A stretch of 64,000 nt of DNA from a virus: positions 1 to 64,000 of the IMG/VR virus record IMGVR_UViG_3300032235_000623; one strand, 5' to 3'. Of the stretch, positions 8,493-55,338 are shown piece by piece (the stretch's first letter is position 1; every line of letters starts with the position of its first letter). Below the pieces are notes generated by a model. The model had not been told where the DNA came from. It made no database searches and worked only from the letters and a program-made list of their open reading frames with translations. Position numbers and translations under genes: made by a program.

Positions 8493-11400
8493 ATGACCTG
8501 GTGGAGAAAAACAAGTTCAAGCGATACTGGTAATCATAATATAAATGGCTGGGTAAAGCTACAAAGCATATGGAGAAAAGCATCTCCACAAGATGAATAC
8601 AACTCAAGTCTTTCTGCAAATCCATGGGTGGTTGACGGATGGCTTAAGATAAAAACCGCATGGCGATTAGACTCAGTTATCGGAGGCATAGGCATATGGT
8701 ATAAAATCTTCTCTGGATTAAATTTGCCTATTTTTCAAATACCTTTTCCAACATTATTTTTTAAATGGCCTGATGGATTTGAAACTTCAGACTCTCCAAT
8801 TAATGGGTCAAAAATGTTTGTCACCAGGGGGTCTTGGACAGAAGAGCCAAATGAGTTTAGATTAAGAATACAAGAGAAAAGCCCTATTGGTTCATGGACT
8901 ACGGTGTATGATACGACAAAAGTATATACCGAATACTTAGAGTCAGACTCAGAAGATAGGTTTCCAAGCAATGCAAATGATTCTACTAGGCCAACAATAT
9001 CAAAATCAAAAACAATTAATGGCTATTCTTTCAGAGCTGTAGTAGATGCAACAAATGACGCTGGATTAACAAATCAGTATATATCAGATCCAGTAGTTCC
9101 AAGGTTAGATTTTAAAATTAGTTCTTTTTCTGTTTACGACGAGCAATCAGATGGGGCTACCTTTACATGGTCCTACTCACCGTACGTAAACTCTGGCTCG
9201 ATAAATTCAGAAACAGATATATATAGTCAAACAATTATCATCTATGATGAGCTTAATGCTGAAGTCTATAGAGAAGATATTCCAGTTGATTCAACTACTG
9301 TAATAATATCAGATCCATCAATACTTCCAGAGACCACATACGTAGCACGTATAGAAGCAGTAGCAGCAGACGGATATTTCCTGGATAGTCTTCCAACATA
9401 TGAGTTTTTTGATATTGATTTTATAACAGTTGGCGCATTTCCAGAAATTGAAGTTAATCCAACACTCACATTAATTTCTGGGGAGGCATCATGTGTAGGC
9501 TCTGTGTATAGGCTTTCAAGCGGAACTTGGTCTAACAACCCCACTGGATATAGGTACTACTTTGATAGACAAAATTTTGCAGGCAGTAATATATTAACAT
9601 ATCCAGGAACTACAACATATACATCAAATACATATTATGATTATACTCTTTCAAGCGAAAATGCTCAGGGAATAGATGCATATACTATTGCAGCAAACTC
9701 CAAGGGCGAAGCAGATCTTTATGCGTATGCAACATCATCAATTCAGGGCCCAATTAAGCTGCCAAAGCCAACAGATGTATCTGCCACCATTTCTGGCTCT
9801 GGAATAAGTATAAGCTGGACACCACATTCATCAGCAACTAAATATAGAATATACTGGGCTTCAAGTTCTGCCTATCAGCCTGGAGCAGCTTCTTCAACTT
9901 TTGATGAGGAAAAAACCACAAGCTCTTGGACATGGAATAGTTCAGATCCAGATAAAAATGGGATATCCCCATCTGAAGGCTCTTCCTATGTATTTTTTGT
10001 TTCACAGTCAGTTGGAGGAACAATATGGAGCAGCTGGTCATCTCCATCAGTGTCAGTCACAATGCCTGCTACGCCAGAGAACACTTCAAGACCTACATTC
10101 AGCCTACAGTCTGGTACAGCAAATAAAGTAGGGTCTACATATAGACTTTCAAGTGGTTCTTGGACAAATAACCCAACACAGTTTAGATACATCTTTGAGC
10201 TAAATAATGCTGCTGGTTCTCAATTTGTTTTTTACCCCTCATCAACTGGATACACAACTGATACTTATTATGATCATACATTTACTTTAGGTACATCAAG
10301 TTCGGTTGCTGGTGTCGTATATGCATATAATGGCTTACAAAGCCTGGGTGCATACAGCACAACTAGCATCGGTCCAATTACGTATCCTACATATAAAATA
10401 ACATATAACGGTAATGGTGGAACTTCAGCATTAGCATCAGAAGATGTTGTATCAGGAAATTCAACATCATTGCCAAACGCAACAAGAACTTATTATACAT
10501 TTGATGGGTGGTATACTGCTGCGGTAGGCGGATCTTATGTTGGCACATCTACTTCAAGCTATACCCCAACACAAGATATTACTTTGTATGCAAGATGGAG
10601 TGCAATTCAGTGGACAGTAAAATGGAATGGAAATGGTGGAACTGTTAATAATAACGGTAGTTCTACATACTCAGTAACATTTAATGCAGGAACTAGCGTA
10701 ACAGCACCTTATGCAACAAGGTCTGGCTATGTTCATACTGGATGGAGATATCCAGCATCTGGCGATATATGGTACCTGGCAAGCCCAGGTGGTACATTTA
10801 CTCCAGATTCAAATAATATAACAATGTATGCTACTTGGCAGATTGCGCCACCAAGTACACCAAGTTTTACAGCAATAACCACAAACAGAACTGATGGCAT
10901 TAATATGACCTGGGGTGAGGTAGCTGGAGCTACATCTTATGAAATTTGGTATGGTAATAGCGCACCATCAGATAGCTTATCGACACCAGATTTCTACCCA
11001 GGAAATGTTACAACATTTACAGACACGTCTGTCCCAGCTGGTTCTTATAGAACATACTACATACGTGCAAGAAATTCAGGAGGAGCCTCCTCGTGGTCTT
11101 CTGGAGCAACTGGCTATAGAGATTATGTAAGATATACAGTTACATGGAGTGCAAATGGTGGCAATGGAGGAGGATCAACAACAGAGATTGCTGGAAGCTC
11201 ACATACAGCCCCATCTCCAGGAACTAGAGCTGGGTATGTATTTTACGGTTACTATGATAGACCAAGCGGAGACTATACGTATGGCCCAGTATCTTCTGGT
11301 GGAGCATTTACCGCTCCATCATCAATTACAATGTATGCTAGATGGCAGGTTGCAGCTCCGTCAACACCAAGCTTTACATCAGCTACTACGACTAGAACTG

Positions 11401-12230
11401 ATGGAATTAGGTTAGAGTGGGGTGCAGTTGATGGAGCAACATCATATGAAATTTGGTGGGGAAATAGTGCACCATCAGACAGTTTATCAACACCAGACTT
11501 CTACCCAGGAAACACCACGTTTTACCTAGATACCACAGTCTCCGCTGGATCATCAAGAACATACTACATACGTGCAAGAAATTCAACAGGTGCTTCTTCA
11601 TGGTCATTAGGTAAAACTGGAACTAGGGCTTATGAGCAATACACTGTGACTTGGAGTGCTAATGGAGGAACTGGCGGAGGATCAACGACAGCTAATGCTG
11701 GAACTGCTCACACTGCTCCTTCCCCAGGTTCTAGATCTGGATATTCTTTTATCGCTTATTATGATAGGCCAAGTTTAGACTACACGTACGGACCTGTAGC
11801 TTCTGGTGGATCATTTACTCCGCCTTCTTCTATAACTATGTATGCAAGATGGAGCACTAACACCACAACAACTACTACAACTACTACAACTACAACAACG
11901 TCAAATTGCAATACATGTAGTAGTTACGCTCCAACCGACGGAAGCTATGGATATTCAGCAACAGATCCGTATGGTACATGTGCTTCAGGTTCTAGATATT
12001 ATAGAATTTGTGTAACTCCAGGCTCTTGTCCAAATATAACTCAATGGGGTTCTTGCGTTCCAACTACCACAACAACTACTACCACAACAACTTCTGGTAG
12101 ACCAACGGTATACTGGAAGTGTAATTCAACAGATGTTGCAAATGCAAGCAATCCATGTACTTCAGTAGGTCAATGCCGACAGGCTGGAAATACATATTTC
12201 CCTGCAGGATGTGTTTCATGTTGCGATTAG
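8493..12230 (+). CDS. Large tail fibre with Fn3 / Flg_new repeats and poly-Thr tracts
   Basis: This protein has 1245 residues. Several Fn3-like units (ATKYRIYWASSS, ATSYEIWYGNSAPSDS) alternate with Listeria-Bacteroides (Flg_new/InlB B) repeats, recognisable by strings such as YNGNGGTS and FDGWYT ending in LYARW or MYARW. Two units near the C-terminus are near copies with a period of about 169 residues. Residues about 1124-1136 are 13 consecutive threonines and about 1191-1200 are ten more. The segment between them is Cys-rich (CNTC, CVTPGSCP) and the protein ends in a second Cys-rich tip. Such proteins are adhesins that bind glycans or surface proteins. A GT60 glycosyltransferase gene lies about 650 bases downstream. 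Confidence 0.8.
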   Translation: MTWWRKTSSSDTGNHNINGWVKLQSIWRKASPQDEYNSSLSANPWVVDGWLKIKTAWRLDSVIGGIGIWYKIFSGLNLPIFQIPFPTLFFKWPDGFETSDSPINGSKMFVTRGSWTEEPNEFRLRIQEKSPIGSWTTVYDTTKVYTEYLESDSEDRFPSNANDSTRPTISKSKTINGYSFRAVVDATNDAGLTNQYISDPVVPRLDFKISSFSVYDEQSDGATFTWSYSPYVNSGSINSETDIYSQTIIIYDELNAEVYREDIPVDSTTVIISDPSILPETTYVARIEAVAADGYFLDSLPTYEFFDIDFITVGAFPEIEVNPTLTLISGEASCVGSVYRLSSGTWSNNPTGYRYYFDRQNFAGSNILTYPGTTTYTSNTYYDYTLSSENAQGIDAYTIAANSKGEADLYAYATSSIQGPIKLPKPTDVSATISGSGISISWTPHSSATKYRIYWASSSAYQPGAASSTFDEEKTTSSWTWNSSDPDKNGISPSEGSSYVFFVSQSVGGTIWSSWSSPSVSVTMPATPENTSRPTFSLQSGTANKVGSTYRLSSGSWTNNPTQFRYIFELNNAAGSQFVFYPSSTGYTTDTYYDHTFTLGTSSSVAGVVYAYNGLQSLGAYSTTSIGPITYPTYKITYNGNGGTSALASEDVVSGNSTSLPNATRTYYTFDGWYTAAVGGSYVGTSTSSYTPTQDITLYARWSAIQWTVKWNGNGGTVNNNGSSTYSVTFNAGTSVTAPYATRSGYVHTGWRYPASGDIWYLASPGGTFTPDSNNITMYATWQIAPPSTPSFTAITTNRTDGINMTWGEVAGATSYEIWYGNSAPSDSLSTPDFYPGNVTTFTDTSVPAGSYRTYYIRARNSGGASSWSSGATGYRDYVRYTVTWSANGGNGGGSTTEIAGSSHTAPSPGTRAGYVFYGYYDRPSGDYTYGPVSSGGAFTAPSSITMYARWQVAAPSTPSFTSATTTRTDGIRLEWGAVDGATSYEIWWGNSAPSDSLSTPDFYPGNTTFYLDTTVSAGSSRTYYIRARNSTGASSWSLGKTGTRAYEQYTVTWSANGGTGGGSTTANAGTAHTAPSPGSRSGYSFIAYYDRPSLDYTYGPVASGGSFTPPSSITMYARWSTNTTTTTTTTTTTTTSNCNTCSSYAPTDGSYGYSATDPYGTCASGSRYYRICVTPGSCPNITQWGSCVPTTTTTTTTTTSGRPTVYWKCNSTDVANASNPCTSVGQCRQAGNTYFPAGCVSCCD
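10848..11845 (+). repeat. Tandem 507-base coding repeat in fibre gene
   Basis: Two adjacent copies, each an Fn3-like plus Flg_new-like module, are offset by about 507 bases. For example, the segment coding ATSYEIW recurs near 10931 and 11438, and the SGGAFTAPSS-like segment recurs in each copy. The repeat is intragenic and in frame, so recombination between copies would change fibre length without a frameshift. Confidence 0.8.
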
Positions 12231-12232
12231 TG

Positions 12233-12261
12233 TTGACAGAATTTTCATTAATTGGTAGAAT
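12233..12261 (+). promoter_or_regulatory. Sigma-70-type promoter, leaderless gene
   Basis: Consensus TTGACA (12233-12238), 17-base spacer, TAGAAT (12256-12261), then exactly six bases to the ATG at 12268. The start of transcription is expected at or beside the start codon. Confidence 0.85.
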
Positions 12262-12267
12262 TAACAA

Positions 12268-12627
12268 ATGCTATTAAGTAAAGATAAGATACATATAATG
12301 TTAGAGGGTCAGGAGCACAACTATAATCCAGAGATTCACATTTTAGCATGTTTTGTAATAGAAGACATTGTTGTTGAAAATGGAATATATTCATACGAAT
12401 TCTTTAATTTATTTAATAACTCCATTGTAGAGGAAAAAGAAGAGTATGAAGATGGAGATATTCTTTTATCACTTTATGATCAGGCAGATGGATCTAAGCA
12501 ATATATGAGATTACCAGAGAGATTGGGCTCAATAATGTTAAGCAGTCCAAAATTAATTGAGGTTCCAGAAGGTTCTCAGTGGGTTACAATTGGTTCTAAG
12601 TATATAGATGGAGTATTTTATCCATGA
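12268..12627 (+). CDS. Hypothetical acidic protein
   Basis: This 119-residue acidic protein directly follows a strong promoter with no room for a ribosome binding site, so it is probably translated from a leaderless mRNA. It overlaps the next gene by four bases (ATGA). The sequence has beta-type hydrophobic spacing and no motif I know. It is first in an operon with a zinc protein and a GT60 glycosyltransferase, but no function can be assigned. Confidence 0.75.
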   Translation: MLLSKDKIHIMLEGQEHNYNPEIHILACFVIEDIVVENGIYSYEFFNLFNNSIVEEKEEYEDGDILLSLYDQADGSKQYMRLPERLGSIMLSSPKLIEVPEGSQWVTIGSKYIDGVFYP

Positions 12628-12878
12628 CAGAAAAAACAAGGTGGGAAAAGTATTTAGAAAAGCAAAAGCAAAAAAATGGAAGCAGTGATGTAAAGCCATG
12701 GGATCTGATAAATCCACATACTGAATATACAGATAGAGAAACTTCTGACGCAAGGTATGAGATTTGTAAAATTTGCCCTGAGCTTTTTGATCTAACAAAG
12801 CAATGTAAAAAATGTGGATGTTTTATGGCCCTTAAAACTAAAATGAAAGAGGCTTCCTGCCCTATTGGTAAATGGTAA
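12624..12878 (+). CDS. Small cysteine-rich protein, DUF6171-like
   Basis: This 84-residue protein's C-terminal half carries the cysteine pattern CKIC, then CKKCGC, then SCPIGKW, typical of small phage and bacterial DUF6171-like zinc or metal-binding proteins. Six cysteines probably bind one or two metal ions. It is coupled to both neighbours: four-base overlap upstream and TAATG overlap with the glycosyltransferase. The function is unknown; a partner role for the adjacent glycosyltransferase is only a contextual guess. Confidence 0.75.
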   Translation: MTEKTRWEKYLEKQKQKNGSSDVKPWDLINPHTEYTDRETSDARYEICKICPELFDLTKQCKKCGCFMALKTKMKEASCPIGKW

Positions 12879-13780
12879 TGGCTAGTATATTTGTTCAAAT
12901 TCCAGCGTACCACGACTTAGAGTTGTCCAGAACAATTAGAGATTGTTTAGAAAAAAGTTCAGGTCTTCATACCATAAACTTTGGGGTTCATTTAACTTAT
13001 TTTGAAAATAGCGATATTGAAATTCCTAAATTAGATAATGTAAGATTTAGTACGAGCCCTGCCCCAGAGAATATCGGCGTTGGTATGGCAAGGTACCTAG
13101 CAAACGAGTTCTACGACGGGGAAGACTATTACTTGCAGATAGATTCACATATGAAGTTTAGAGAGTCTTGGGATGAAATTTTAGTTAATAATTACATACA
13201 GTATAAATCTATGGGAGCTAACCCAGTTATATCTTGCTACCCTGGCGCATATGAGTATGAAGATTTAGTTCCAAAGATTCTAAATACAGATGCCCATATT
13301 CCTTATACTGACTTTATTCAAGAGTTGAGCTTTATGGGCAACTATGTTCCACACCAAAGAGCAGTCGGAAATTTTTCAAACAATGTTTTTTCTAGATCAG
13401 TTTCTGCTGCTTCAGTATTTGGAAGTGGAGAAATTGCCCTCATAAAACCAAACAAAAAAATGTTTTTTTGGGGTGAGGAGATTCTTATGGCATTGAGGTT
13501 TTATACACACGGCTTTGATATCATGCTGCCAAAAACTCAATGCCTGTATCATCTATACTACGATCCTGCAAAAGGCTATCAAAATTTGAGAAGGCAGGTA
13601 GCAGAAGATTTTCCAGAACAGTCATCAAAGCTTGAAATTGCTTCTCAGAAGGAGCTTGAAAGAATTATAATAAATAAAGCAATTGGCAACCAGGAGCTGG
13701 GTTCAAAAAGAACGCTAGAAGAATTCCAGTCTTTTGCAGGCATTAATTTTATTGACAAAAAGATTATGCCAGTGCTATAA
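12878..13780 (+). CDS. GT60-family polypeptide GlcNAc-transferase-like glycosyltransferase
   Basis: This 300-residue GT-A glycosyltransferase belongs to the GlcNAc family (PF11397/GT60). Residues about 85-95 give YYLQIDSHMKF, the DSH form of the metal-binding DxD motif. FFWGEEI near residue 196, the following LRFYTHGFD and the late YHLYY are family hallmarks. Characterised GT60 enzymes move GlcNAc from UDP-GlcNAc onto hydroxyproline of Skp1 or onto threonine in trypanosome mucins. I chose ATG 12878 because it overlaps the preceding stop (TAATG). It lies just downstream of a tail fibre with long threonine tracts, so that fibre is an attractive but unproven substrate. DNA or host glycans are other possible targets. 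Confidence 0.85.
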   Translation: MASIFVQIPAYHDLELSRTIRDCLEKSSGLHTINFGVHLTYFENSDIEIPKLDNVRFSTSPAPENIGVGMARYLANEFYDGEDYYLQIDSHMKFRESWDEILVNNYIQYKSMGANPVISCYPGAYEYEDLVPKILNTDAHIPYTDFIQELSFMGNYVPHQRAVGNFSNNVFSRSVSAASVFGSGEIALIKPNKKMFFWGEEILMALRFYTHGFDIMLPKTQCLYHLYYDPAKGYQNLRRQVAEDFPEQSSKLEIASQKELERIIINKAIGNQELGSKRTLEEFQSFAGINFIDKKIMPVL

Positions 13781-13781
13781 T
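13752..13781 (+). promoter_or_regulatory. Strong promoter at the end of the GT60 gene
   Basis: TTGACA (13752-13757), 18 bases, TATAAT (13776-13781) with a TG extension (TGCTATAAT). Transcription would start near 13788, just before the AGGGAGG ribosome binding site of the gene at 13800. Confidence 0.75.
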
Positions 13782-33079: not shown

Positions 33080-33478
33080 ATGAATTTTGATGATGAAGTT
33101 TTCCAAGAGCGTAGATTTTTATTTCAAAATATAGCCTCTGTTTTACCAGATAATCCTTGGGTTATTAAAGCTACTGAAAAAATGAAAACTTATTCAAAAG
33201 ATGAATATTCTATTATGCTAAAAGAAGCATATGAATTTCAAGATGTATTTGATAGAGCAGTTCAATTAAATATCTCTGCAAAAACAGAAGAAGCACATGA
33301 GCTTTTTGTTTTATTCATTAAGCATATAAGATGGTTTTTTGAAATAGATAAAGAGTCTTATGACGAGCTACTAGAGCTTTGTAGTCCAAATATGAATCAA
33401 TTTCTTATTGTAAATAAATCATACTCTGATTTATTATTTGATATACTTAATGAGTATAGACTGGAAGTAGGAGTTTAA
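33080..33478 (+). CDS. Hypothetical protein
   Basis: This 132-residue protein starts MNFDDEVFQERRF one base after the preceding stop. An earlier ATG (33059) overlaps it in frame. The sequence is helical and acidic. The stop overlaps the oxidoreductase ATG (TAATG), so it probably belongs to the island operon. Function unknown. Confidence 0.6.
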   Translation: MNFDDEVFQERRFLFQNIASVLPDNPWVIKATEKMKTYSKDEYSIMLKEAYEFQDVFDRAVQLNISAKTEEAHELFVLFIKHIRWFFEIDKESYDELLELCSPNMNQFLIVNKSYSDLLFDILNEYRLEVGV

Positions 33479-34443
33479 TGAAGGCAATCGTAGTAAAATC
33501 ATTTGGCGGTCCAGAGGTTATGGAGTATGTCGATTATCGAGATCCAACACCTGTAAAAAATCAAGTTTTGGTAGATACAAGAATGATAGGCGTCAACTAT
33601 GCAGATACCTATCAAACAGAGAATAGCTATTTGGTACAGTCTTTGCCACCAGTCATCCCTGGCATAGAGGCATCATTTATGATAGATGGTGATTTATTTG
33701 TTGGGCACACTTCAAGCGGTGCATATGCAGAAAAAATTCTTGTTAATAGAGATAGAATGTTTAAGGTGCCAGATGGTGTCAGTGAGCAGGAAGCACTCTC
33801 TGTAGTATGTCAGGGAACTACTGCATATGGAATAGTAAATGATATATGCAATATTAAAGATGGAGATTTGGTTTTAGTAAATGGAGCTTCAAGTGCAGTT
33901 GGCATGATACTAATTCAGCTATGCAAACTTTATGGCGCTACAGTCATAGGTGTTACTGGAAGTGAAAAGAAGATAGATTTTGTAAAAGACTTAGGTGCTG
34001 ACTTCGTATGCATTGATAGCATGTCTGAAATAAAAAAAATTACTGATTCAATTGGGAAAAAGCCAAAATTTATTTTAGAGTCTTACGGCGGTAAGCATTT
34101 CATGCAATACTATAGCATGCTAGATACTGCTGGTCATATATGTTCGTACGGTGCATCCTCTAGAGAAGGCTTGCCACCAATGCATATACGTGATCTTTTA
34201 AAGGATACCAAGATAGTTTCTGGATTCTGGGGAACTAAAATTTTTGCAGACTCAGAAAAATTATCTACTGCGGTTAACGATTTGTTTGATTTGATTAAAA
34301 ATAAAAAAATAAAAATTGTTATTGGAGATACAATGTATCTAAGCAATGCAAAGGAAATGCATGAAAAAATTAGAAACAGAGATACAGTTGGAAAGCTTAT
34401 TTTAATAAACGATATGAATGAAGCTTTAAAAAATGAAGTTTAG
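33478..34443 (+). CDS. Quinone oxidoreductase-like medium-chain dehydrogenase
   Basis: This 321-residue zinc-independent MDR/QOR enzyme has an N-terminal GroES-like part (KAIVVKSFGGPEVMEYVD, PVIPGIEASFMI) and a Rossmann fold with NGASSAVGMILIQLCK near 138 for NADPH. Cys residues for structural zinc are absent. It probably reduces an enoyl or quinone-type substrate using NADPH. It is coupled upstream and overlaps the second SGNH gene by 11 bases, within an island of SGNH, carbamoyltransferase and oxygenase genes. Confidence 0.85.
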   Translation: MKAIVVKSFGGPEVMEYVDYRDPTPVKNQVLVDTRMIGVNYADTYQTENSYLVQSLPPVIPGIEASFMIDGDLFVGHTSSGAYAEKILVNRDRMFKVPDGVSEQEALSVVCQGTTAYGIVNDICNIKDGDLVLVNGASSAVGMILIQLCKLYGATVIGVTGSEKKIDFVKDLGADFVCIDSMSEIKKITDSIGKKPKFILESYGGKHFMQYYSMLDTAGHICSYGASSREGLPPMHIRDLLKDTKIVSGFWGTKIFADSEKLSTAVNDLFDLIKNKKIKIVIGDTMYLSNAKEMHEKIRNRDTVGKLILINDMNEALKNEV

Positions 34444-35272
34444 CATTAGTAGTAATTTTACTGAAAATAAATATTTTGGTATTTTAAATCCAAATACTGA
34501 AGATTTTCTGATGCCATACGAAAAAGATCTTGGAATTGATCCAGACCACAGCCTAGTTTATAGCTATAATAATTTTGGTTTCAGGTGTGAAGATTTTGTA
34601 AAAAATCATAATGGGTTACATATACTTTTTGCGGGATGCTCTGAGACAGAGGGCGCTGCAAATAAACTAGAGGATACTTGGTCGCATATTTTATATAGCA
34701 AGATAAAAAAATCTGAAGACATGTCTGGCTACTATAACGTAGGTAAAGCTGGACTTACTATATCTGCAATTGTAATGAATATATTTCAATACATAGATGA
34801 TTTTGGATTGCCCGATTGTATTTTTGTGCAGTTTCCAGATCAAACAAGATACGTAACCTGGTCCCAAGAGGATGGGTTTTATCCAAAGTATCAGGTTTTA
34901 GGAGATAATGTAAGTAATATAGAGTGGGATATATTTTTTACCAAACATGACGATCCAAAAGCACTAAATATAAATATACTTTATAATTACCTATTGTTAA
35001 AAAATTTAATTCAGTTTTGTAAAATAAATAATATAAGATTAATCTGGTCTAGCTGGCACCATCCAAGTATTGAAAAATTTAGTTCTGATACCAGTTTGCT
35101 TGATGGCTATATAAACACAAGTACGCTTAATAAAGAGCATTGGGATATTAAAATAAAGGACTTAAAAGCAAGAGATGGATATCATTTTGGGAGAGGCTTT
35201 CATAAAATATGGGCTGACCAGTTCTATAAGGAGTTTTTAAATGATAAAGATCATAAAAAGAATAATAGTTAA
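34433..35272 (+). CDS. SGNH/GDSL-like hydrolase (paralogue B)
   Basis: This 279-residue protein is related to the gene at 31506. The GCSETEG block near 66 carries Ser in the SGNH position, VGKAGLT is the block-II-like turn, and DGYHFGRGFHKIW near 250 carries the candidate catalytic His. The FVQFPDQTRYV strand matches the FAMFPVFNRME strand of the paralogue. It may act on an acylated sugar or peptide. A tiny basic ORF follows, then the carbamoyltransferase. Confidence 0.7.
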   Translation: MKFSISSNFTENKYFGILNPNTEDFLMPYEKDLGIDPDHSLVYSYNNFGFRCEDFVKNHNGLHILFAGCSETEGAANKLEDTWSHILYSKIKKSEDMSGYYNVGKAGLTISAIVMNIFQYIDDFGLPDCIFVQFPDQTRYVTWSQEDGFYPKYQVLGDNVSNIEWDIFFTKHDDPKALNINILYNYLLLKNLIQFCKINNIRLIWSSWHHPSIEKFSSDTSLLDGYINTSTLNKEHWDIKIKDLKARDGYHFGRGFHKIWADQFYKEFLNDKDHKKNNS

Positions 35273-35318
35273 AAGAAAAATAAAACAAATGTTAAAGAAG
35301 AATAGGTATACCTACTAA
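35241..35318 (+). CDS. Tiny lysine-rich protein after SGNH B
   Basis: This 25-residue ORF overlaps the SGNH end by 32 bases. Its stop overlaps the carbamoyltransferase ATG (TAATG). Its sequence is nearly all Lys, Ile and Arg and ends NRYTY, as the ORF after paralogue A ends DYTY. A shared design next to two paralogous genes supports real translation. Confidence 0.5.
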   Translation: MIKIIKRIIVKRKIKQMLKKNRYTY

Positions 35319-36757
35319 TGATTATTTTAGGCATTAATGAAACATCACACGATGCATCAATATCCTTGATAAAGGATGGTGAGATACTATTTGCTGGACA
35401 TGCTGAAAGATACAGTAAAAAAAAGAATGACTGGTATAACAATAATGAAATTTATCTTGATATGCTTAATTATGGAACACCAACCCATATAGCATACTAT
35501 GAGCATCCAAGATTAAAACAATCAAGAATTATGTTGAGAGGCGGTGCTTCAGACTGGAAGCCAAGCATACCATTTGATCTACCAGTTAAATACTTTAGTC
35601 ACCACTATTCTCATGCATGTGCTGGATATTATACAAGTAAATTTAAAGATGCAGTAATTGTTGTTCTTGATGCAATAGGTGAATGGAATACATCAACAAT
35701 ATGGGTAGGCGAAGGCGAAGAAGTTAAATCGGTAAAGAAATTTAATTATCCAACAAGTTTTGGTTTATTCTATTCTGCATTTACTAAGCTACTTGGCTTA
35801 AAGCCAAATGAAGAAGAATATATAATGATGGGGATGGCTGGGTACGGTGATCCAGACAGATACTTTGATAAAGTTAATTCTTATTTTCCATCAATTAGAA
35901 AACAAAAATATAATTTTCATAAAGGAATAAATGACTGGGATATTGAGATAACAGATCAAAATAAATTTGATATTGCAGCAGCAGTACAAAAAGTATATGA
36001 GCATAGACTTTTAGAATTTATGGAGTATGCAAAGATACTTACGGGGAAAACAAATCTTGTATTTATGGGTGGATGTGCATTAAATTGTTCTGCTAACACC
36101 AAACTATGGGATTTGTTTAATAATATTTGGATTATGCCAAATCCAGGAGATGCGGGTAGCTCATTGGGTGCAGCAGCAGCCTTATACGGCTCTCATTTAA
36201 ATTGGGAAGGCCCATATCTAGGCACTAATTTGCAAAGTAATTGGCCTAGACACGAAATACTAAAAGAGCTAAAAGAAAATAAAATTGTAGCGGTTGCGTC
36301 TGGAAGGGCAGAGTACGGTCCAAGAGCACTTGGTAATAGAAGTATATTGGCAGATCCAAGAGATCCTAATATTAAAGATAAGGTAAATCAAATTAAACAA
36401 AGAGAAAAGTTTAGGCCATTTGCCCCAGTTGTTTTAGAGCATTTTGCAAATGAATGGTTTGACATGCCAACAAGATCAACACCATATATGCAATATGCAG
36501 TTAGGTGCAAATATCCAGAAAAAATACCTTCTGTCGTACATGTCGACGGAACTTCAAGAGTCCAGACTGTAAATGAATATGACCACCCAGAACTACACAT
36601 GCTTCTCAGGCAGTGGTATTGGGAAACAGGCGTACCTATTTTATTAAATACTAGCTTAAATATTAAGGGTCAGCCACTCCTTAATGATCAAAATGATATA
36701 ATTGAGTGGCAAAATAGATATAACACTAAAATATACGGAGGAAATAATGTTTTATGA
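35318..36757 (+). CDS. NodU/CmcH-type O-carbamoyltransferase
   Basis: This 479-residue protein opens with the Kae1-like ATP-binding domain GINETSHDASISLIKDG and carries GHAERYSK. Later come GGCALNCSAN near 250 and the C-terminal carbamoyltransferase block RAEYGPRALGNRSILADPR near 330. The enzyme makes carbamoyl-adenylate from carbamoyl phosphate and ATP and transfers the carbamoyl group to a hydroxyl on sugars or antibiotics. Related viral enzymes are known to act on 5-hydroxymethylcytosine. It is somewhat shorter than typical members. Substrate here is unknown; the neighbouring oxygenase could supply a hydroxyl. Confidence 0.88.
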   Translation: MIILGINETSHDASISLIKDGEILFAGHAERYSKKKNDWYNNNEIYLDMLNYGTPTHIAYYEHPRLKQSRIMLRGGASDWKPSIPFDLPVKYFSHHYSHACAGYYTSKFKDAVIVVLDAIGEWNTSTIWVGEGEEVKSVKKFNYPTSFGLFYSAFTKLLGLKPNEEEYIMMGMAGYGDPDRYFDKVNSYFPSIRKQKYNFHKGINDWDIEITDQNKFDIAAAVQKVYEHRLLEFMEYAKILTGKTNLVFMGGCALNCSANTKLWDLFNNIWIMPNPGDAGSSLGAAAALYGSHLNWEGPYLGTNLQSNWPRHEILKELKENKIVAVASGRAEYGPRALGNRSILADPRDPNIKDKVNQIKQREKFRPFAPVVLEHFANEWFDMPTRSTPYMQYAVRCKYPEKIPSVVHVDGTSRVQTVNEYDHPELHMLLRQWYWETGVPILLNTSLNIKGQPLLNDQNDIIEWQNRYNTKIYGGNNVL

Positions 36758-37529
36758 CAACCCAAATGTAGAAAAAGTTGGACACAAAGTTTATGTATAC
36801 AGGAATTTTGTTTCTCCAGAAAAAATGGCAGAGATAAATAAAATTTTAAAAGACATAAATGTTGATGATTTAAGAGTAGATACTTCAGATCACACGATAG
36901 ACTGGTATTACGATAAGTTTACTCAGCCTATTCCAGCTTTGTATGACGTATGGAAGGATTTAAATGATCTACTTCTTCCAGAATACTGTATTCACCCATG
37001 CCTTACCCTACTTAGTACTAAAGAGGGAGAAGAAATGTACGCTCACTCAGATAGTCCAGGAGAAGATATGGAAGACGAGCTTATTGCTTCAGATGTATGG
37101 AACACTTGTTGTGTTATCCACTACGGCGCTATAGTTTATTTTGGAGAATTTGAAGGCGGAGAGGTATACTATCCAAACTTAGATGCAGATGGTAACTTTG
37201 TAGGAAATGAAGAACCATTAAAGGCTGGCAATGAATTTAGAGTAAAGCCTAATGCTGGAGACTTGATAATTCATGGAGCTCATAGCGATACATATCATGG
37301 AGTTAAGAAGATAACATCTGGCGTAAGATATGCTTTCTCAAACTTTGTTTTACCAGTTGAAAAGAATCCAGGAACATTCCCAGTATGTGGTACTCCAGAA
37401 AATGAAGAAAGATGGAATAAGGGTCATGCAGAATGGCTAACACCAATTAATTTTAAATGGCAGCCTTCTGAAAAACTACAAAATGAAATAGACGCTGGAG
37501 TTACTGGCGTAAGATATAGAGATATGTAG
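36747..37529 (+). CDS. 2OG-Fe(II) oxygenase (prolyl-4-hydroxylase-like)
   Basis: This 260-residue dioxygenase has HSD near 98, the later HGV within DTYHGVKKITSGVRY (second His plus the Arg that binds 2-oxoglutarate), and jelly-roll strands between. It would hydroxylate a protein, sugar or small molecule using oxygen and 2-oxoglutarate. I chose ATG 36747 because GGAGGAAATA lies directly upstream. It overlaps the carbamoyltransferase end by 11 bases, suggesting sequential hydroxylation and carbamoylation. Confidence 0.82.
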   Translation: MFYDNPNVEKVGHKVYVYRNFVSPEKMAEINKILKDINVDDLRVDTSDHTIDWYYDKFTQPIPALYDVWKDLNDLLLPEYCIHPCLTLLSTKEGEEMYAHSDSPGEDMEDELIASDVWNTCCVIHYGAIVYFGEFEGGEVYYPNLDADGNFVGNEEPLKAGNEFRVKPNAGDLIIHGAHSDTYHGVKKITSGVRYAFSNFVLPVEKNPGTFPVCGTPENEERWNKGHAEWLTPINFKWQPSEKLQNEIDAGVTGVRYRDM

Positions 37530-39185: not shown

Positions 39186-41321
39186 TTGACTAGGACTAAG
39201 TTATGGAGATTATCATTAGCAGCCATTTTGGGGTTTGGCTGGCTATTTATGACACCTGCATACAGTGACGATCCTTTAACATTAGCCGCTAAAGAAATTG
39301 AATTATTAAATAGTGCAGTAGATAAATTAGACTATAAAGAAGGTCTAATTAATATGATTGATATCGCAGAAAATAAGTTCACATATGCCAAAAATCTACA
39401 GGATGTTAGAAATACAGCAATTGCAGACTATGAAGATGCAGTTGATGCAGAAGCCTCAGCATTAGAAGAATTAGAAATTGCTCAGTCAAATGTAGATGGA
39501 CAAACAGCAACAGTAGCCCTTGCACTTGATAATAGGGACAATGCTTTTCAAAATAAAAATAACGCACAAGATGCTCTCAATATAGCTAATATTAATCTAC
39601 AAACAGCACAATCTAATATGCAATCTGCAGGTGGATCAGGACTGCAATACACTGTATATAATCTTGCAAGAGTTTGGCCAAGCATAGCTGTGCCAGATTC
39701 CGTTATATGCTCTGGAACATGGAATTCAAACTCTATGCAACTTCCTGTTTGTGGCAATAGATATGAGAATATAGTAGTTAAGTTTACAGGACAAATAACA
39801 GTTCCAGATCATTGGACATCAACATATTTTGCAGGCTATACAGATGATGGGTTTAGAATGTACATTGATGGACAACTTGCAGTAAACAACTGGGTAGAGC
39901 AAGGTGTAAGGTGGAGCAACTATTCACCAGTTTATGATGTTACAACAGACAAGACATTTGATGTAGAAATTTGGTGGTACAACGGTGGAGGACCAGGATC
40001 TTATCACCTTGGTTGGGCTATTCCTGGAGGATGGACTGGAGCAGGATGCGACTATACTGGTGGTTGGGGAGTAGGATTTAGTTGTAATCTTGGAACATTC
40101 TCTTCTGGATCAGGACCAACACAGGCACAAATAGATGCTTATAACCAAGCACTTGAAACAAGAAATGCAGCACAACAAGATTATAATAATGCACTATCAG
40201 AATATAATGACAAACTAAATGTATACAACCAAGAGGTTGCAACACTAAACTCATTAAATCAAACATTAACTAATAAAGAATCTGAGTATGATAATGCAGT
40301 AAATGACACAGAGGATGCTTTGTCTGAAAAGAATAATGCTATAAATGATTTTAATAACGCTATAAATGATCTAAATAGCGCAATTGATGACGCATGGCGT
40401 TACTATGATGAGCAGTCAAAAAGAGAAATTCAGAGAGCAATCGCTCAAGCAGCTGCCAACGCTGCTGCAAACCAGCCAAAGCCAGAGCCATCCCCAAAAC
40501 CAACAATTGAACCAGAAAAGCCAAAGCCTTCTCCGCCACCAACAGATAAACCTGAGCCTAAGCCAAGCAATGCTACTGGAACAGAAGAACCAGGTCCAAA
40601 GCCAACACAGCCAGGACCTAAGCCAGAGCCAACACAGCCAGAAAAGCCTAAACCTGAACCAACAAAGACAAAAGAGCCTAAACCAACACCTGCTCCAAGT
40701 CCTGAACCAAAACCAGAACCTACTATTGAGCCAGAGCCTAAACCACTGCCAAGACCAGAATTTAAGCCAGCAGAAAATATTGATCCAGTTATCAAAGATG
40801 CAGAGCTAGCAGCACTTATTCCAGAAAAAGGAAGCGGAAGCACAGAGGATCTTTCTGGAGTTATTGCTAATCTAACTAGCAAAGATAATAAATTAGTTAA
40901 GCTTTCTCCAGAGCAAACAGCAGCAGTAAGTCAGACCCTCAAGGCTTTGACTCAAGAAGCAAAGAAAGAAATTGCTTCAGATCTTGGAATTTCATCATCA
41001 GAAGTTACAAAGGTTGCGGATGCAATGAAGTCGGATCCCAATATAGCATCAGCATTTGTTGAGTTCTCGGAAAGAGCAGAGCAGGCTGGAGACACATCTA
41101 TGCCATTTACCTTGGCAGATGCAACAACTGAAGTTGCAACAGAAGCATTTTTATCTGATCCAATAGGAGCAATTTCGGACATTAATTTTGAAAAATTACT
41201 TAGCCCATCAGAATGGGGTAAAGATATGACTGACGATCAGAGAGAAAAGGCACAAGAGGTAGTTGTGCCTGTAATTATTGCTGGAAATATTGTGGCAGCA
41301 GCCATGACAAGGAGGATATGA
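39186..41321 (+). CDS. Secreted PA14-domain surface protein with Pro-rich stalk
   Basis: This 711-residue protein begins at a TTG start with a Sec signal peptide (RLSLAAILGFGWLFMTPAYS). Coiled coils follow at about residues 35-145. A PA14/GLEYA-type carbohydrate-binding domain (about 150-310) contains FAGYTDDGFRMYIDG and DVEIWWYNGGGPGSYHLGW. A long Pro/Lys/Glu stalk (about 430-520) is next, and the C-terminus is hydrophobic (VVVPVIIAGNIVAAAMTRR). It may be a virion or host-surface component that binds glycans. It overlaps the holin-like gene and so may help lysis. Confidence 0.75.
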   Translation: MTRTKLWRLSLAAILGFGWLFMTPAYSDDPLTLAAKEIELLNSAVDKLDYKEGLINMIDIAENKFTYAKNLQDVRNTAIADYEDAVDAEASALEELEIAQSNVDGQTATVALALDNRDNAFQNKNNAQDALNIANINLQTAQSNMQSAGGSGLQYTVYNLARVWPSIAVPDSVICSGTWNSNSMQLPVCGNRYENIVVKFTGQITVPDHWTSTYFAGYTDDGFRMYIDGQLAVNNWVEQGVRWSNYSPVYDVTTDKTFDVEIWWYNGGGPGSYHLGWAIPGGWTGAGCDYTGGWGVGFSCNLGTFSSGSGPTQAQIDAYNQALETRNAAQQDYNNALSEYNDKLNVYNQEVATLNSLNQTLTNKESEYDNAVNDTEDALSEKNNAINDFNNAINDLNSAIDDAWRYYDEQSKREIQRAIAQAAANAAANQPKPEPSPKPTIEPEKPKPSPPPTDKPEPKPSNATGTEEPGPKPTQPGPKPEPTQPEKPKPEPTKTKEPKPTPAPSPEPKPEPTIEPEPKPLPRPEFKPAENIDPVIKDAELAALIPEKGSGSTEDLSGVIANLTSKDNKLVKLSPEQTAAVSQTLKALTQEAKKEIASDLGISSSEVTKVADAMKSDPNIASAFVEFSERAEQAGDTSMPFTLADATTEVATEAFLSDPIGAISDINFEKLLSPSEWGKDMTDDQREKAQEVVVPVIIAGNIVAAAMTRRI

Positions 41322-46215: not shown

Positions 46216-46244
46216 TTGACAGAACTCAATAATTATTGTATTAT
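46216..46244 (+). promoter_or_regulatory. Consensus promoter, leaderless gene
   Basis: TTGACA (46216-46221), 17 bases, TATTAT (46239-46244), six bases to ATG 46251. Confidence 0.85.
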
Positions 46245-46250
46245 TCATTT

Positions 46251-47186
46251 ATGAAAAAAACACTAACTGCTATTGCTGTGATTGCGATTTCGGCGGTATC
46301 GCTTCCAGCTAATGCAGCACTAAAAAACTCTACCGCCCAGTTACCAACACTTGCTATCATCGATACTGCTCTAGATACTTCAATTCCATCTATTAAAGAA
46401 AAACTGATCGGAGAAGTTTGTATCCTGGATTGGAATTCATGCCCTAATGGACAACCTTTTATGGAGGGTACAGGGGCATCAGTGCTTCCAATGAATATTT
46501 TATCAACTAATAACTTTAACCATGGTACACAGATGGCTTCTGTAGCAGTAAAAAATAATCCAAACATGAATATTCTATTTATTAGAATTATTGGTCATAC
46601 TGCTGACGGTCGTAGACAAGTAACAAGAGCCAACCTTGTCCCTAGAGTTTTAGAGTGGATTAATGCAAATAAAGATAGATATAATGTTCAATCTATTGCA
46701 ATGTCACAAGGTCATCACAATCTAGTAAAAACTGGTGATTATTGCCCTAAAAATGTCGAGCTAGATGTTGCATTAGAAAAGCTAAATTCTGCTAACATTC
46801 CAGTGATGTTCGCTGTTGGAAATGATAGAGACTACTCAAGAATTGACTGGCCAGCATGCCACATGTCTCCAAACGTTTTTGCTATAGCTGGGTCAGAAAA
46901 CCACAACGCCCCAGCAACCTATAATAATCACGATTCAACTAGAACAGACTTTTTTGATTATGGAAATCAGCAAGTTGTTAGACCTGGAAATATTCAGGCG
47001 TACGCTGCTGGATCATCTGTAGCAAATGTTTCGTTTGCTGCAAAATGGTTGGGTATCAAAACTTCTAAATCATATGTTTCTATATCTGATATTTCTAATG
47101 TTATTAAAAATACATCTTTGTCAATCAAGAACTCACGTGGGGTATCTGGACTTCTAATTGATTATGGAAAGGCTACAAATGGCTAA
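46251..47186 (+). CDS. Secreted subtilisin-like serine protease
   Basis: This 311-residue S8 peptidase has a signal peptide (KKTLTAIAVIAISAVSLPANA). The catalytic triad is visible as Asp in IIDTALD (about 37), His in NFNHGTQMA (about 90) and Ser in AAGSSVANVSF (about 254). I chose ATG 46251 because it begins the signal peptide and lies exactly six bases after the -10 box; the longer TTG start at 46236 would disrupt this. A secreted subtilase in a phage could cut host surface proteins or process virion proteins. There is no visible propeptide, which is unusual. Confidence 0.85.
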   Translation: MKKTLTAIAVIAISAVSLPANAALKNSTAQLPTLAIIDTALDTSIPSIKEKLIGEVCILDWNSCPNGQPFMEGTGASVLPMNILSTNNFNHGTQMASVAVKNNPNMNILFIRIIGHTADGRRQVTRANLVPRVLEWINANKDRYNVQSIAMSQGHHNLVKTGDYCPKNVELDVALEKLNSANIPVMFAVGNDRDYSRIDWPACHMSPNVFAIAGSENHNAPATYNNHDSTRTDFFDYGNQQVVRPGNIQAYAAGSSVANVSFAAKWLGIKTSKSYVSISDISNVIKNTSLSIKNSRGVSGLLIDYGKATNG

Positions 47187-51957: not shown

Positions 51958-52081
51958 ATATTCTATTAAAAAAGAACAAAAGTGCTACTACTGCACTGAG
52001 GAAGGTCTTTATTTTGACTATGCTGATTATAGATGTATAAGTGTTTGTAAAAATCATTTAAATATGGAAGCCTCAAGCTAA
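51950..52081 (+). CDS. Small zinc-binding protein
   Basis: This 43-residue protein has CYYC, then a later CISVC and His, giving a possible treble-clef zinc site. Its stop contains the ATG of the P450 gene. It could be an expression partner. Confidence 0.6.
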   Translation: MSKYSIKKEQKCYYCTEEGLYFDYADYRCISVCKNHLNMEASS

Positions 52082-53328
52082 TGTCAATTCAAAATAATTT
52101 AAAAAAAGCTGGTCCAGAATTTCTTTTAAATTTAAAAAAACAAAATGGTGAAGTATTTTGGATACAGGATTATTTATTTGCATTCAATGAAAACTACGTA
52201 AATGAAATTTATGTTAAGCAGTACAACAACTTTACAAAAGCTGGCGGATGGCATAAGATTAAAGAGGGAATAGGATCAGGGTTGCTCACTAGTGAAGAGC
52301 CAAAGCACCTAGTCAATAGAAGAATACTAAACCCTGCATTTCATGTGAATAAGATTAATAAGCATATTGATGAAATGCGTTCAATAATTTCAAAAGAATT
52401 AAGTAATTTACAAAGTCAGAGTGAATTTAATATATCAGATTATTTTTTAAACTTGAGCTATATAGTATTAACTAATACCTTATTTAATGATAAAAACCTA
52501 TCTGAATCAAAAGAATTTAAAGATATATTTTATTCAATTATGAAGAAAACTGTTGATGACGAAGATCCGCACCATGAATCTTTGGAAGAGTATAGGAGCA
52601 GTTTATATAATTTAATATCAAAAGTAGTTTTGGATAGAGTCTCTAACGAAGAACATAATGATGACTTCCTAGACCTATTAATTGAATCATTCAATGATGG
52701 CGAGATGTCATTGCATGAAATAGTGGATGAGATACTCAGTATGCTACTTGCTGGACATGAAACAACGGCTAACGTCGTATCATGGGCAATATGTCATGTG
52801 TCATTAAATCAGGAAATAAAGAATAATATAAAAATAGAATCAGACTTATTTATAAATAAAATAAATACCAATGGAGTTCTTGATTCTTTAAAGGATTTAA
52901 CAAATTCAGAATATGCTATAAAGGAAACATTAAGACTCTATCCTCCAGTCTGGTCTAGCCCAAGGGAGGCAATTAGTGATTGCTATATAGAGGACACCTT
53001 CATTCCAAAGGGAACAAAAATTATATTAAGCTCATATGTTTCCCATAGAGATGAAAAGTATTTTGATGATCCAGAATTATTTATGCCAGATAGATGGGAT
53101 AATAATTTTGAGGACACCCTACCTCAAGGCTCATACTTTCCATTCCATCTTGGTCCAAGAAAGTGTATCGGATATCGTTTTGGAGAAATACAGGCAAAAA
53201 TTACATTACTAGAATTTTTTAAAAACTTTGAGATTGATTTATTGAACGGAATGCCTAAAGGTGTGCCATATGCAACATATAGAATATCTGAAAATTTCTG
53301 TGTTGAATTAAGAAAGAGTGATCAGTGA
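52081..53328 (+). CDS. Cytochrome P450
   Basis: In this 415-residue protein, the I-helix AGHETTANV (about residue 223), KETLRLYPP (ExxR, about 281) and heme-ligand FHLGPRKCIGYRFGE (about 354, axial Cys) are all intact. P450s use oxygen and reducing power to hydroxylate or oxidise substrates. No ferredoxin or reductase is visible nearby, so it would borrow host redox partners. P450s are very rare in phages. It is coupled to the luciferase-like monooxygenase (four-base overlap). Confidence 0.92.
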   Translation: MSIQNNLKKAGPEFLLNLKKQNGEVFWIQDYLFAFNENYVNEIYVKQYNNFTKAGGWHKIKEGIGSGLLTSEEPKHLVNRRILNPAFHVNKINKHIDEMRSIISKELSNLQSQSEFNISDYFLNLSYIVLTNTLFNDKNLSESKEFKDIFYSIMKKTVDDEDPHHESLEEYRSSLYNLISKVVLDRVSNEEHNDDFLDLLIESFNDGEMSLHEIVDEILSMLLAGHETTANVVSWAICHVSLNQEIKNNIKIESDLFINKINTNGVLDSLKDLTNSEYAIKETLRLYPPVWSSPREAISDCYIEDTFIPKGTKIILSSYVSHRDEKYFDDPELFMPDRWDNNFEDTLPQGSYFPFHLGPRKCIGYRFGEIQAKITLLEFFKNFEIDLLNGMPKGVPYATYRISENFCVELRKSDQ

Positions 53329-54113
53329 AGATTCATTACATGACAGACTCAGGAAACGATCTATCTGAGCTATCAAATATCCTAGATGATGCAGGCTACT
53401 ACTCTCTCCTTCTGGTATATCATTCAACAAAACCAGATGCCTGGATTAAATGTGCTAATGCTTTAAATAAAAAACATAAGTTTAAGTACATGATAGCCAT
53501 GAGGCCGTATGCAATTAGCCCAGAGTACTTTTCTATGATGTGCAACGCATTTAATGAGCTGTCTCCAAACAGGATAATGTTTAACATAGTAGCTGGAGAC
53601 TTACATAAAGAAGAGAAAAGCGTAGAGCATGCTTTATTTATCGGCGACCTTATAGAAACATCAGAAAAGAGAGTAAAGTATACTGCTGAATGGATAAAGA
53701 AATTAAAAGAAATTAATAAGATAAGGCCATTCCCAGAGATAGTAATGTCTGGGTTTTCTGATAAAACATTAGAAACTGCTGCAGAGTTTGCGGACTATAA
53801 TTTATGTATGATTGATACATACAAAGAGCATACAGATAGATTTAATAAAAATAAAAATAGAATGGTTTCTGCTCAGATTATAATAAGGGATACGTATGAG
53901 GAAGCAAAAGAGTTTGCTGATAAATATGTGCCAGAAGAGCACAAAAGAAGGTGGACAATTTTTGGAACAGAGTCTGACATTATTAATGAGTTTGAATATC
54001 TTGAGTCTATTGGGGTCACAGACATAATGCTTAGATCGCATAATTCAGATTTAAAGGTTAATTTAACTCACAATTTTGTAAAAAAATATAACTCAAGAGA
54101 AATGGTACAATAA
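53325..54113 (+). CDS. Luciferase-like flavin-dependent monooxygenase
   Basis: This 262-residue TIM-barrel LLM-type flavoprotein has the N-terminal MTDSGNDLSELSNILDDAGYYSLLLVY and FKYMIAMRPYAISPEYF, and later IGVTDIMLRSH. These enzymes use reduced FMN and oxygen to oxidise aldehydes, nitriloacetate or alkanesulfonates, or to N-oxidise amines. Starts at GTG 53325, overlapping the P450 end. Substrate unknown; it probably acts with the P450 and the downstream oxygenase. Confidence 0.78.
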   Translation: MKIHYMTDSGNDLSELSNILDDAGYYSLLLVYHSTKPDAWIKCANALNKKHKFKYMIAMRPYAISPEYFSMMCNAFNELSPNRIMFNIVAGDLHKEEKSVEHALFIGDLIETSEKRVKYTAEWIKKLKEINKIRPFPEIVMSGFSDKTLETAAEFADYNLCMIDTYKEHTDRFNKNKNRMVSAQIIIRDTYEEAKEFADKYVPEEHKRRWTIFGTESDIINEFEYLESIGVTDIMLRSHNSDLKVNLTHNFVKKYNSREMVQ

Positions 54114-54116
54114 GAT

Positions 54117-54797
54117 ATGACTAAAATTTATGCAATAGGTGACTGCCACCTATCAAGAGTGCAGGAACATTATAATCCAAGCGAAAGCGATGTGGATTTT
54201 GTTATATGGGGCAAGGCTGCGAAGAAGATATGGGACATTAATTTTGCAGAGATGCTGACGCTGGACGAGGTATCCTCTGGTAAAGAGCAGCAAAGATTTG
54301 ATGGAGACGGTGTAACGCTATTTAGCCAAATTAAAGATGAAGATATATTGTTCGCATGGTTTGGATATGTTGATATTAGAACATTTTTATCTAAATATAA
54401 CAATGCTGATGAGGTTGCTAAAAGGTATGTAGATCAGCTTAAATCTTATTTTAAAAATTCTTTAATTGTTATTATAGAGCCTCTACCTCAGTTTACTGAA
54501 ATGTTATTAAAGTACGAAGGTATTAGTCCATCATATACATATGAAGAAAGATTGAACCAAAATAAACTCTTTATAGAGTCTTTGCACAAATATGCATCAG
54601 ATGCAGGAATTACACATTTTATAACTCAAGACGATATAAAAAAGGCCATAGGAAGCGATGAGTTAACGCCTGCTATGACTCACACAAAAGCCCCTCACCC
54701 AGTTGATGGCTTGAAGGACGAATATAACCAAAATATATTTTTCTTGTTTGAAAGATATGCCAAAAAAATTATAGAGGAGAACTTTAATGACAACTAA
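54117..54797 (+). CDS. SGNH-hydrolase-like protein
   Basis: This 226-residue protein has GDCHLSRV near the start (GDxx block with C where Ser is usual), LFAWFGYVDIRTF (block III-like), and APHPVDGLKDEYN (His block, Asp-x-x-His-like). It resembles SGNH esterases but the nucleophile position is Cys, so activity is uncertain. Lies in the oxidative island. Confidence 0.6.
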   Translation: MTKIYAIGDCHLSRVQEHYNPSESDVDFVIWGKAAKKIWDINFAEMLTLDEVSSGKEQQRFDGDGVTLFSQIKDEDILFAWFGYVDIRTFLSKYNNADEVAKRYVDQLKSYFKNSLIVIIEPLPQFTEMLLKYEGISPSYTYEERLNQNKLFIESLHKYASDAGITHFITQDDIKKAIGSDELTPAMTHTKAPHPVDGLKDEYNQNIFFLFERYAKKIIEENFNDN

Positions 54798-55338
54798 CCA
54801 CGAAATGGTAACAGATAAAATTGTACAGTTTAATGATGTATTTGAGGACTTGGATGCTGTAGTTTCCAAGGTAGAGTCTGGATCCTGGGAGCACTGGGGT
54901 AGAGCAAATAATGAACGTGTTGGAACATTAAGATGGATCTATAAGATAGAAGGCTATCTTTATAATGAAATTAATTCAGCTGTTACAAAAGCAGCAGACG
55001 AATATTTTGAGAACCAATCTATTAAAAAGAATGAGTATATGTTTTCGAACAGCTCATATCATATTAGAAAATGGGATGCACCAATGAGAGGCATGGAGCC
55101 TCATTCAGACTTTTCAGCAAATGAGGATGGAAGCAGAAGCAACCCCTCATACACCATATGTGGTTATATCACAGAGGATTACGAGGGCGGGCACCTAGAA
55201 TTTCCTAAGCACAACATATCTATTAAGCCAAAAGCTGGATCTATTATAATATTTCCATCTGATGAATGGCACGGAGTTTCTGATGTAATAAGCGGAAATA
55301 GAATGATGTTTAGCTTATTTATACATAAAACCCATTGA
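54787..55338 (+). CDS. 2OG-Fe(II) oxygenase (second copy)
   Basis: This 183-residue protein has HSD near 106, DEWHGVSD near 160 and SGNRMMF (Arg) near 171. This is the H-x-D...H triad plus 2-oxoglutarate Arg of prolyl-hydroxylase-like enzymes. It is shorter than the copy at 36747. It would hydroxylate a small molecule or protein side chain. It overlaps the SGNH gene by 11 bases. Confidence 0.82.
   Translation: MTTNHEMVTDKIVQFNDVFEDLDAVVSKVESGSWEHWGRANNERVGTLRWIYKIEGYLYNEINSAVTKAADEYFENQSIKKNEYMFSNSSYHIRKWDAPMRGMEPHSDFSANEDGSRSNPSYTICGYITEDYEGGHLEFPKHNISIKPKAGSIIIFPSDEWHGVSDVISGNRMMFSLFIHKTH

Follow-up and report, generated by a model that had tools for sequence, protein, structure and literature searches.

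A GT60 glycosyltransferase gene beside a threonine-tract tail fibre in a phage, and its association with low-complexity fibre tracts among relatives

Mucin-type O-glycosylation is initiated by the polypeptide N-acetylgalactosamine (GalNAc)-transferases, or ppGalNAc-Ts, of family GT27. Enzymes of another family, GT60, have been described on two kinds of acceptor: that of Trypanosoma cruzi puts N-acetylglucosamine (GlcNAc) on threonines of a low-complexity, mucin-like protein (PMC9472816), and Gnt1 of the Skp1 pathway acts on a hydroxyproline of Skp1, which it requires (PMC6939170). Here we examine a GT60 gene in 64,000 nucleotides of viral DNA (positions 1 to 64,000 of IMG/VR record IMGVR_UViG_3300032235_000623, whose full length is 108,849 bases); this whole stretch is called the window. 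The gene lies downstream of a tail-fibre gene with two long uninterrupted threonine runs, and an earlier sequence-only reading of the window had proposed that the phage glycosylates this fibre. The two GT60 acceptors which that reading had named match the papers just cited.

The phage enzyme shares the PF11397 domain with the mucin enzyme of T. cruzi. The latter is a eukaryotic Golgi enzyme, whereas the phage protein has 302 amino acids and no obvious membrane segment and, unlike the T. cruzi enzyme, is encoded beside its presumed substrate and a DUF6171 gene. With the Skp1/Gnt1 pathway of Dictyostelium and Toxoplasma the locus has a GT60 in common, but pairing with a prolyl-hydroxylase-like enzyme is seen in the relatives with proline tracts. 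The substrate of Gnt1 is an E3-ligase adaptor; here it is presumed to be a virion fibre, with nearly proline-free tracts and no adjacent hydroxylase gene. The GT27 enzymes provide the closest solved folds to the model of the phage GT60 (TM-score 0.5-0.6 on the query) and share the logic of densely modified Thr/Pro tracts. The phage protein nevertheless belongs to another sequence family (12-16% identity), lacks a lectin domain, presumably uses another sugar, and is viral and cytoplasmic.

Low-complexity repeats are known in phage fibres, the collagen-like fibres being an example. The present system differs from the collagen-like fibres and 2-oxoglutarate (2OG)-Fe(II) oxygenases of aquatic phages in that tract composition, DUF6171 and a polypeptide glycosyltransferase co-vary as one cassette. 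To our knowledge, mycobacteriophage virion glycosylation involves neither low-complexity Thr/Pro acceptor tracts nor a DUF6171 partner; it resembles the role proposed here in that the phage's own structural proteins, in that case of the capsid or tail, are the target. Such modification by mycobacteriophage glycosyltransferases has been proposed, for example, for Maravista (PMC11256854), and oxygenases resembling prolyl hydroxylases occur widely among marine phages (PMC12774648). In the open-access literature we found no description of phage GT60s with Thr-tract fibres, of DUF6171, or of Thr-rich glycosylated fibres. Phage virion glycosylation and the GT60 family are already known, whereas the pairing of a phage GT60 with a Thr-tract fibre would be new.

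The fibre gene (8493..12230, on the plus strand, as are all features of this locus given below) encodes 1245 amino acids. The protein has an Ig/fn3-like region, beta repeats of the Flg_new family (PF09479, E=3.3e-25, four stretches) and C-terminal Cys-rich modules joined by Thr tracts, and it matches the phage tail-fibre families phrog_31 (central tail fibre J) and phrog_7440. The two tracts, T13 at 11862..11900 and T10 at 12063..12092, are the sole runs of at least six threonines in the window when all six frames are scanned; when the residues of the fibre were shuffled 20,000 times, Thr runs reached 8 at most. Each is followed, near the C terminus, by a Cys-rich module. The first module lies between both tracts (SNCNTCSSYAPTDG...GSCVP, 11901..12062), and the second forms the C-terminal tip (SGRPTVYWKCN...CVSCCD, 12093..12227) and is conserved in close relatives. 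The ORF (open reading frame) and the six-frame scan confirm the fibre as it was first read, with its two runs around a Cys-rich module. Close relatives swap Cys-rich modules between tracts: one of them, L016, carries three in a row with T5 tracts between, and the window's inter-tract module recurs there with other modules behind it.

The first tract is written in mixed ACN codons. All 69 runs of six or more threonines use mixed codons, with no single-codon runs, and adjacent identical codons in these runs are rarer than expected (0.267 observed versus 0.312 expected). The Thr tracts of the fibre are therefore not microsatellites. What the fibre carries is a dense Thr/Ser/Pro low-complexity tract in which, judging from codon usage, selection seems to act on threonine as an amino acid.

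The GT60 gene (12872..13780) begins 641 bp downstream of the fibre gene, close to the 650 bases first estimated. Its product matches PF11397 (GlcNAc) with E=2.4e-35 and 123 bits, above the curated cut-off of 21, over profile positions 97-349 of 352. The QIDSHMKF motif, correctly recognized in the sequence-only reading, occupies residues 89-96, and across 42 homologues Q89, I90, D91, H93 and F96 do not vary. Further invariants in the same set are D91xH93, E202-E203, H227, R74 and E84-D85, of which H227, by analogy, would be the third metal ligand beside the DxH motif. A sequence search of solved structures gave no match to the enzyme. An AlphaFold2 model was obtained with a mean predicted local distance difference test score (pLDDT) of 93, and all 39 of its top PDB matches are ppGalNAc-Ts, with E down to 2e-10. 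The confident model and the invariant residues together give a GT-A fold with a DxH metal-binding motif.

Two genes occupy the gap between fibre and GT60. The first is a 119-aa ORF (12268..12627), perhaps a small fibre-associated protein, with which family searches gave no match. The second encodes an 84-aa DUF6171/phrog_13558 protein (12624..12878; PF19668, 31.3 bits against a cut-off of 27, E=2.7e-07) that keeps the invariant Cys pattern CxxC...CxxCxC...C, and the GT60 start codon lies inside its end. Within this group, DUF6171 constantly accompanies the fibres with Thr/Pro tracts.

The association of GT60 with tract fibres extends well beyond the window and is no local coincidence. In a first viral scan, nine of nine GT60 relatives (40-75% identity) had an ORF with a Thr run upstream. 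A wider viral scan yielded 80 GT60 loci, 66 of which form the core clade containing the window. In 54 of these 66 loci, the 7 kb upstream contain a same-strand ORF with a Thr/Pro low-complexity tract, and no tract was found downstream of core-clade GT60s in the 530 kb scanned. In eight of the 12 tract-less core loci the contig stops short of the expected position or close to it; the others are L016, whose T5 tracts fall below the detection threshold, and L037, L038 and L028, which are considered below. The tracts beside core GT60s are of many types, including T22, (ATT)n, (PTTTTTTTAA)n, (TP)n, (GTTPPP)n and (ATPPPII)n, and the tract ORFs fall into 19 clusters once the tracts are masked. Therefore, the pairing is not explained by one hitchhiking fibre gene.

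Another set of loci was selected by DUF6171 alone, without regard to GT60 (two scans, 100 usable loci; the Thr-run class was defined by a tract containing TTTT). GT60 was present in all 18 loci with a Thr-run tract, in 18 of 59 with another Thr/Pro tract and in none of the 23 without a tract. After the DUF6171 proteins were collapsed at 85%, loci with and without GT60 numbered 14 and 0 for Thr runs, 12 and 26 for other tracts, and 0 and 17 for no tract (Thr-run versus rest, p=6e-8); single-linkage clustering at 70% or less merges nearly everything and hence is uninformative. In the second of the two scans, for which the rule had been fixed beforehand, GT60 accompanied 10/10 Thr-run loci versus 9/23 others. 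As a control, 50 phages were chosen whose DNA polymerase shares 82-89% identity with that of the window. GT60 occurred in seven of the 50. One of the 50 had a Thr run of at least 7, and it was GT60 positive, so that none of the 43 GT60-negative phages had such a run. The matching regions of 33 relatives lacking GT60, 656 kb in total, contained weak Thr- or Pro-rich stretches and no clear low-complexity tract.

We consider it likely that the genes at 12268-13780 form a small unit that O-glycosylates the Thr tracts of the adjacent fibre. The genes, the tracts, the enzyme's family and fold and the pattern of co-occurrence are observed, and from them we infer the following course. The GT60, as a DxH metal-dependent GT-A enzyme, would attach a sugar, most likely GlcNAc from the host pool of uridine diphosphate (UDP)-GlcNAc, to the threonine hydroxyl groups of T13 and T10 without an intermediate, forming an alpha linkage. 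Modification would take place in the cytoplasm of the infected cell, before or during tail assembly, and its product would be a mucin-like spacer, stiff, extended and resistant to proteases, that separates the exchangeable Cys-rich modules of the tip. DUF6171 would serve as a small adaptor, binding metal or disulfides, which either presents the tip of the fibre or acts as its chaperone for modification; through its conserved Cys pattern it may present or protect the Cys-rich tip. Protease resistance and altered binding, as benefits of the fibre glycans, are guesses. The mucin-type O-glycosylation envisaged in the sequence-only reading finds partial support in comparative evidence: the co-occurrence (18/18 versus 0/23) and the ppGalNAc-T-like fold speak for it, and the link to hydroxylases, discussed below, does not.

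Several observations weigh against glycosylation of the Thr tracts by GT60. Within the core clade, L037 and L038 have no Thr run longer than T5, and a genuine exception is L028, with a GT60 and neither tract nor DUF6171. The tests assume independent loci, although the loci share ancestry; pairing them on a tree gave 1-4 supported contrasts, mostly favourable or uninformative, and had no power. Outside the core clade, distant GT60s (25-31% identity) have no tracts within 7 kb, save for one Pro-rich exception (G005). Finally, among viral contigs chosen for T10 runs, 1/50 carried GT60 and 49/50 did not, and the proposition that Thr runs always need GT60 was rejected. Since viral contigs that lack GT60 commonly encode proteins with Thr runs, the enzyme is not a general requirement for Thr tracts. 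The predicted co-occurrence of GT60 with Thr-rich fibres therefore holds among DUF6171 loci and fails among T10 contigs. GT60 genes lacking Thr-rich fibres, which had been named as a point that would tell against the idea, gave a mixed outcome: distant clades lack tracts, and (TP)n tracts also pair with GT60.

The wide occurrence of Thr-run proteins without GT60 also favours a different explanation, in which the tracts are mere flexible linkers for shuffling tip modules and GT60 modifies another virion protein or the host surface, its place in the fibre region being a matter of habit. The tracts do flank exchangeable modules, as in L016, and phage regions adjoining fibres often gather accessory genes. 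We nonetheless judge this explanation unlikely. In a fixed DUF6171 context, the presence of GT60 tracks tract composition (18/18, 18/59 and 0/23), and that of an oxygenase tracks proline content, for which there is no apparent reason if the enzymes act elsewhere. Moreover, typical surface-modifying Gtr systems have membrane segments, whereas this GT60 has no obvious one.

The link between oxygenases and proline was examined in 81 loci with different tracts. A 2OG oxygenase gene was adjacent in 44/49 loci with tracts of at least 20% proline versus 5/32 low-proline loci (Fisher 1e-11), and the link was replicated (19/21 Pro-rich versus 2/12 low-Pro); low-proline Thr-run loci mostly lack an adjacent oxygenase. 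The model of the main oxygenase group (pLDDT 93) has prolyl hydroxylases as its best PDB matches, the Dictyostelium enzyme first. In the Pro-tract relatives the prolyl-hydroxylase-like gene adjoins those for DUF6171 and GT60. A route resembling that of Skp1 is plausible there: oxygenases added in the slot would produce hydroxyproline acceptors, as in the Skp1 pathway.

The window itself encodes two prolyl-hydroxylase-like 2OG oxygenases (36702-37529 and 54787-55338, one of them below the Pfam cut-off), as the sequence-only reading had stated. These genes, the requirement of the characterized enzyme Gnt1 for hydroxyproline, and the pairing of GT60 and DUF6171 with a hydroxylase-like enzyme in Pro-tract relatives would fit a GT60 that glycosylates hydroxyproline made by the phage's own oxygenases. 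However, the window's tracts are nearly proline-free (about 6%) and its oxygenases lie 23 and 41 kb from GT60. We therefore reject the hydroxyproline route for this phage as very unlikely, and the suggested connection of GT60 to these hydroxylases is likewise unsupported. In close relatives that share this fibre type, the flanks covered, of up to 10 kb around GT60, contain no such oxygenase. A prolyl-hydroxylase-like gene next to GT60, as expected of a Skp1-type system, is a feature of the Pro-tract relatives and not of the window.

Given that the distant GT60s are tract-less, the substrate is predicted by core-clade membership and not by the GT60 domain alone; the notion that all GT60s go with tracts was rejected on this ground. 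Relatives in cultured phages were limited to three Xanthomonas/Stenotrophomonas phages, at about 21% identity and with a relaxed E-value limit. In Xanthomonas phage XacN1 (L430), the distant GT60 adjoins genes for DNA polymerase, RNase H and a carbamoyltransferase, a non-fibre context which suggests that its role differs, such as DNA modification. No isolate with the fibre-DUF6171-GT60 cassette was found, XacN1 being the one inspected of the three cultured relatives. A scan of bacterial genomes for GT60 gave matches limited to SAR86 and a Lokiarchaeota fragment. No Thr/Pro tract was found beside the SAR86 copies L342 and L343 (29-31% identity), and these could be host genes or prophage remnants.

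The gene neighbourhood in XacN1 and the tract-less distant viral GT60s would be compatible with a GT60 acting on the bases of phage DNA or on the lipopolysaccharide of the host, a role that distant GT60s of phages may have. For the enzyme of the window we regard this as highly improbable: its core clade goes with tract fibres and with DUF6171, and its fold is nearest to polypeptide transferases, a comparison made for the window's GT60 only and not for the distant clade. That the Thr tracts are DNA-level repeats, sites of slippage or recombination without protein-level meaning, is scarcely credible even though ACN runs are inherently repetitive and lie at module boundaries, being contradicted by the codon data (mixed in 69/69 runs, adjacent identical codons rarer than expected) and by the way unrelated (ATT)n, (TP)n and T-run tracts substitute for one another beside the same genes.

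Glycosylation of the fibre's Thr tracts thus remains our preferred reading for the window. A broader proposal, which we hold to be about evenly balanced between right and wrong, is that the DUF6171 slot is a widespread modular phage system for decorating tail-fibre tips. Low-complexity Thr- or Pro-rich tracts would evolve together with the enzymes that suit them: GT60 where the tract is a Thr run, and prolyl hydroxylases, combined with GT60 or a different glycosyltransferase, where it is rich in proline. Shuffled receptor-binding modules would sit between the tracts, and phages of bacteria would make mucin-like and hydroxyproline-rich glycoprotein fibres otherwise known from eukaryotes. Among isolates with DUF6171 (Synechococcus, Stenotrophomonas, Rhizobium and Variovorax phages), no clear tract was found nearby in the seven inspected, a marginal Thr-rich stretch in S-CRES2 being the lone near-exception.

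Slot genes sampled in GT60-less Pro-tract loci include weak matches to protein O-fucosyltransferase (O-FucT), GT15 and other glycosyltransferases, and a clear sugar epimerase/GDP-mannose dehydratase occurs in a GT60-less DUF6171/(TP)n slot (loci with such genes: L350:3726-6855, L354:9793-11501 and L353:7196-7972). These could be alternative genes for glycosylation. Many (TP)n loci have a radical SAM/SPASM gene directly upstream of GT60 (L055:4226-5182 and homologues), and its product might modify the fibre or the sugar further. Four or five oxygenase-like genes, including one for a JmjC_2 protein, lie between the (ATPPPII)n fibre and GT60 in L058:4227-7293 and L046. In Synechococcus phage S-SRM01 (L429:4390-5847), a tryptophan halogenase gene between tail-fibre genes adjoins the DUF6171 gene and is possibly another fibre modification. 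In L433, a fibre with collagen-like (GTT)n/(GAQ)n repeats lies upstream of DUF6171, without GT60 or oxygenase.

Two promoter-like sites border the unit in the window. Directly 3' of the fibre stop is a sigma-70-like promoter, TTGACA-17-TAGAAT with an extended TG (12233..12261), which recurs in six relatives. A perfect TTGACA-18-TATAAT promoter-like site lies at the end of the GT60 gene (13752..13781) and would serve the downstream genes. The count of promoter-like sites in the region is close to chance level, and the argument for a promoter thus relies on conservation and not on the match itself.

Along the window, tail genes are followed by genes for a helicase, primase, ssb, a DnaE-like DNA polymerase and recombination, and by tRNAs. 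The closest cultured relatives by DNA polymerase are Streptomyces phages (about 58% identity), and because of this an actinobacterial host may be guessed at. At 52081-55338, genes for a cytochrome P450 (PF00067, 8.8e-62), a luciferase-like monooxygenase, a 2OG oxygenase and a 226-aa ORF are clustered, which is unusual for a phage. A zinc alcohol dehydrogenase, a carbamoyltransferase and a weak 2OG oxygenase are encoded beside the tRNA cluster at 33478-37529, possibly as a nucleotide or sugar modification set. A subtilase-family protease and a PA14-domain protein are encoded at 46236-47186 and 39186-41321, respectively.

If the proposed glycosylation is correct, bacterial viruses would, independently, apply O-glycosylation chemistry of the mucin type and of a Skp1-like type to the fibres that bind their receptors. 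The genes for substrate and enzyme would be neighbours, and the pairing could be read off sequence composition. DUF6171, phage GT60s and part of the abundant prolyl-hydroxylase-like oxygenases of phages would thereby acquire a function. These phages would be a source of compact cytoplasmic polypeptide O-glycosyltransferases that could be tested directly in E. coli, and prediction of host range from fibre sequence would overlook a glycan layer.

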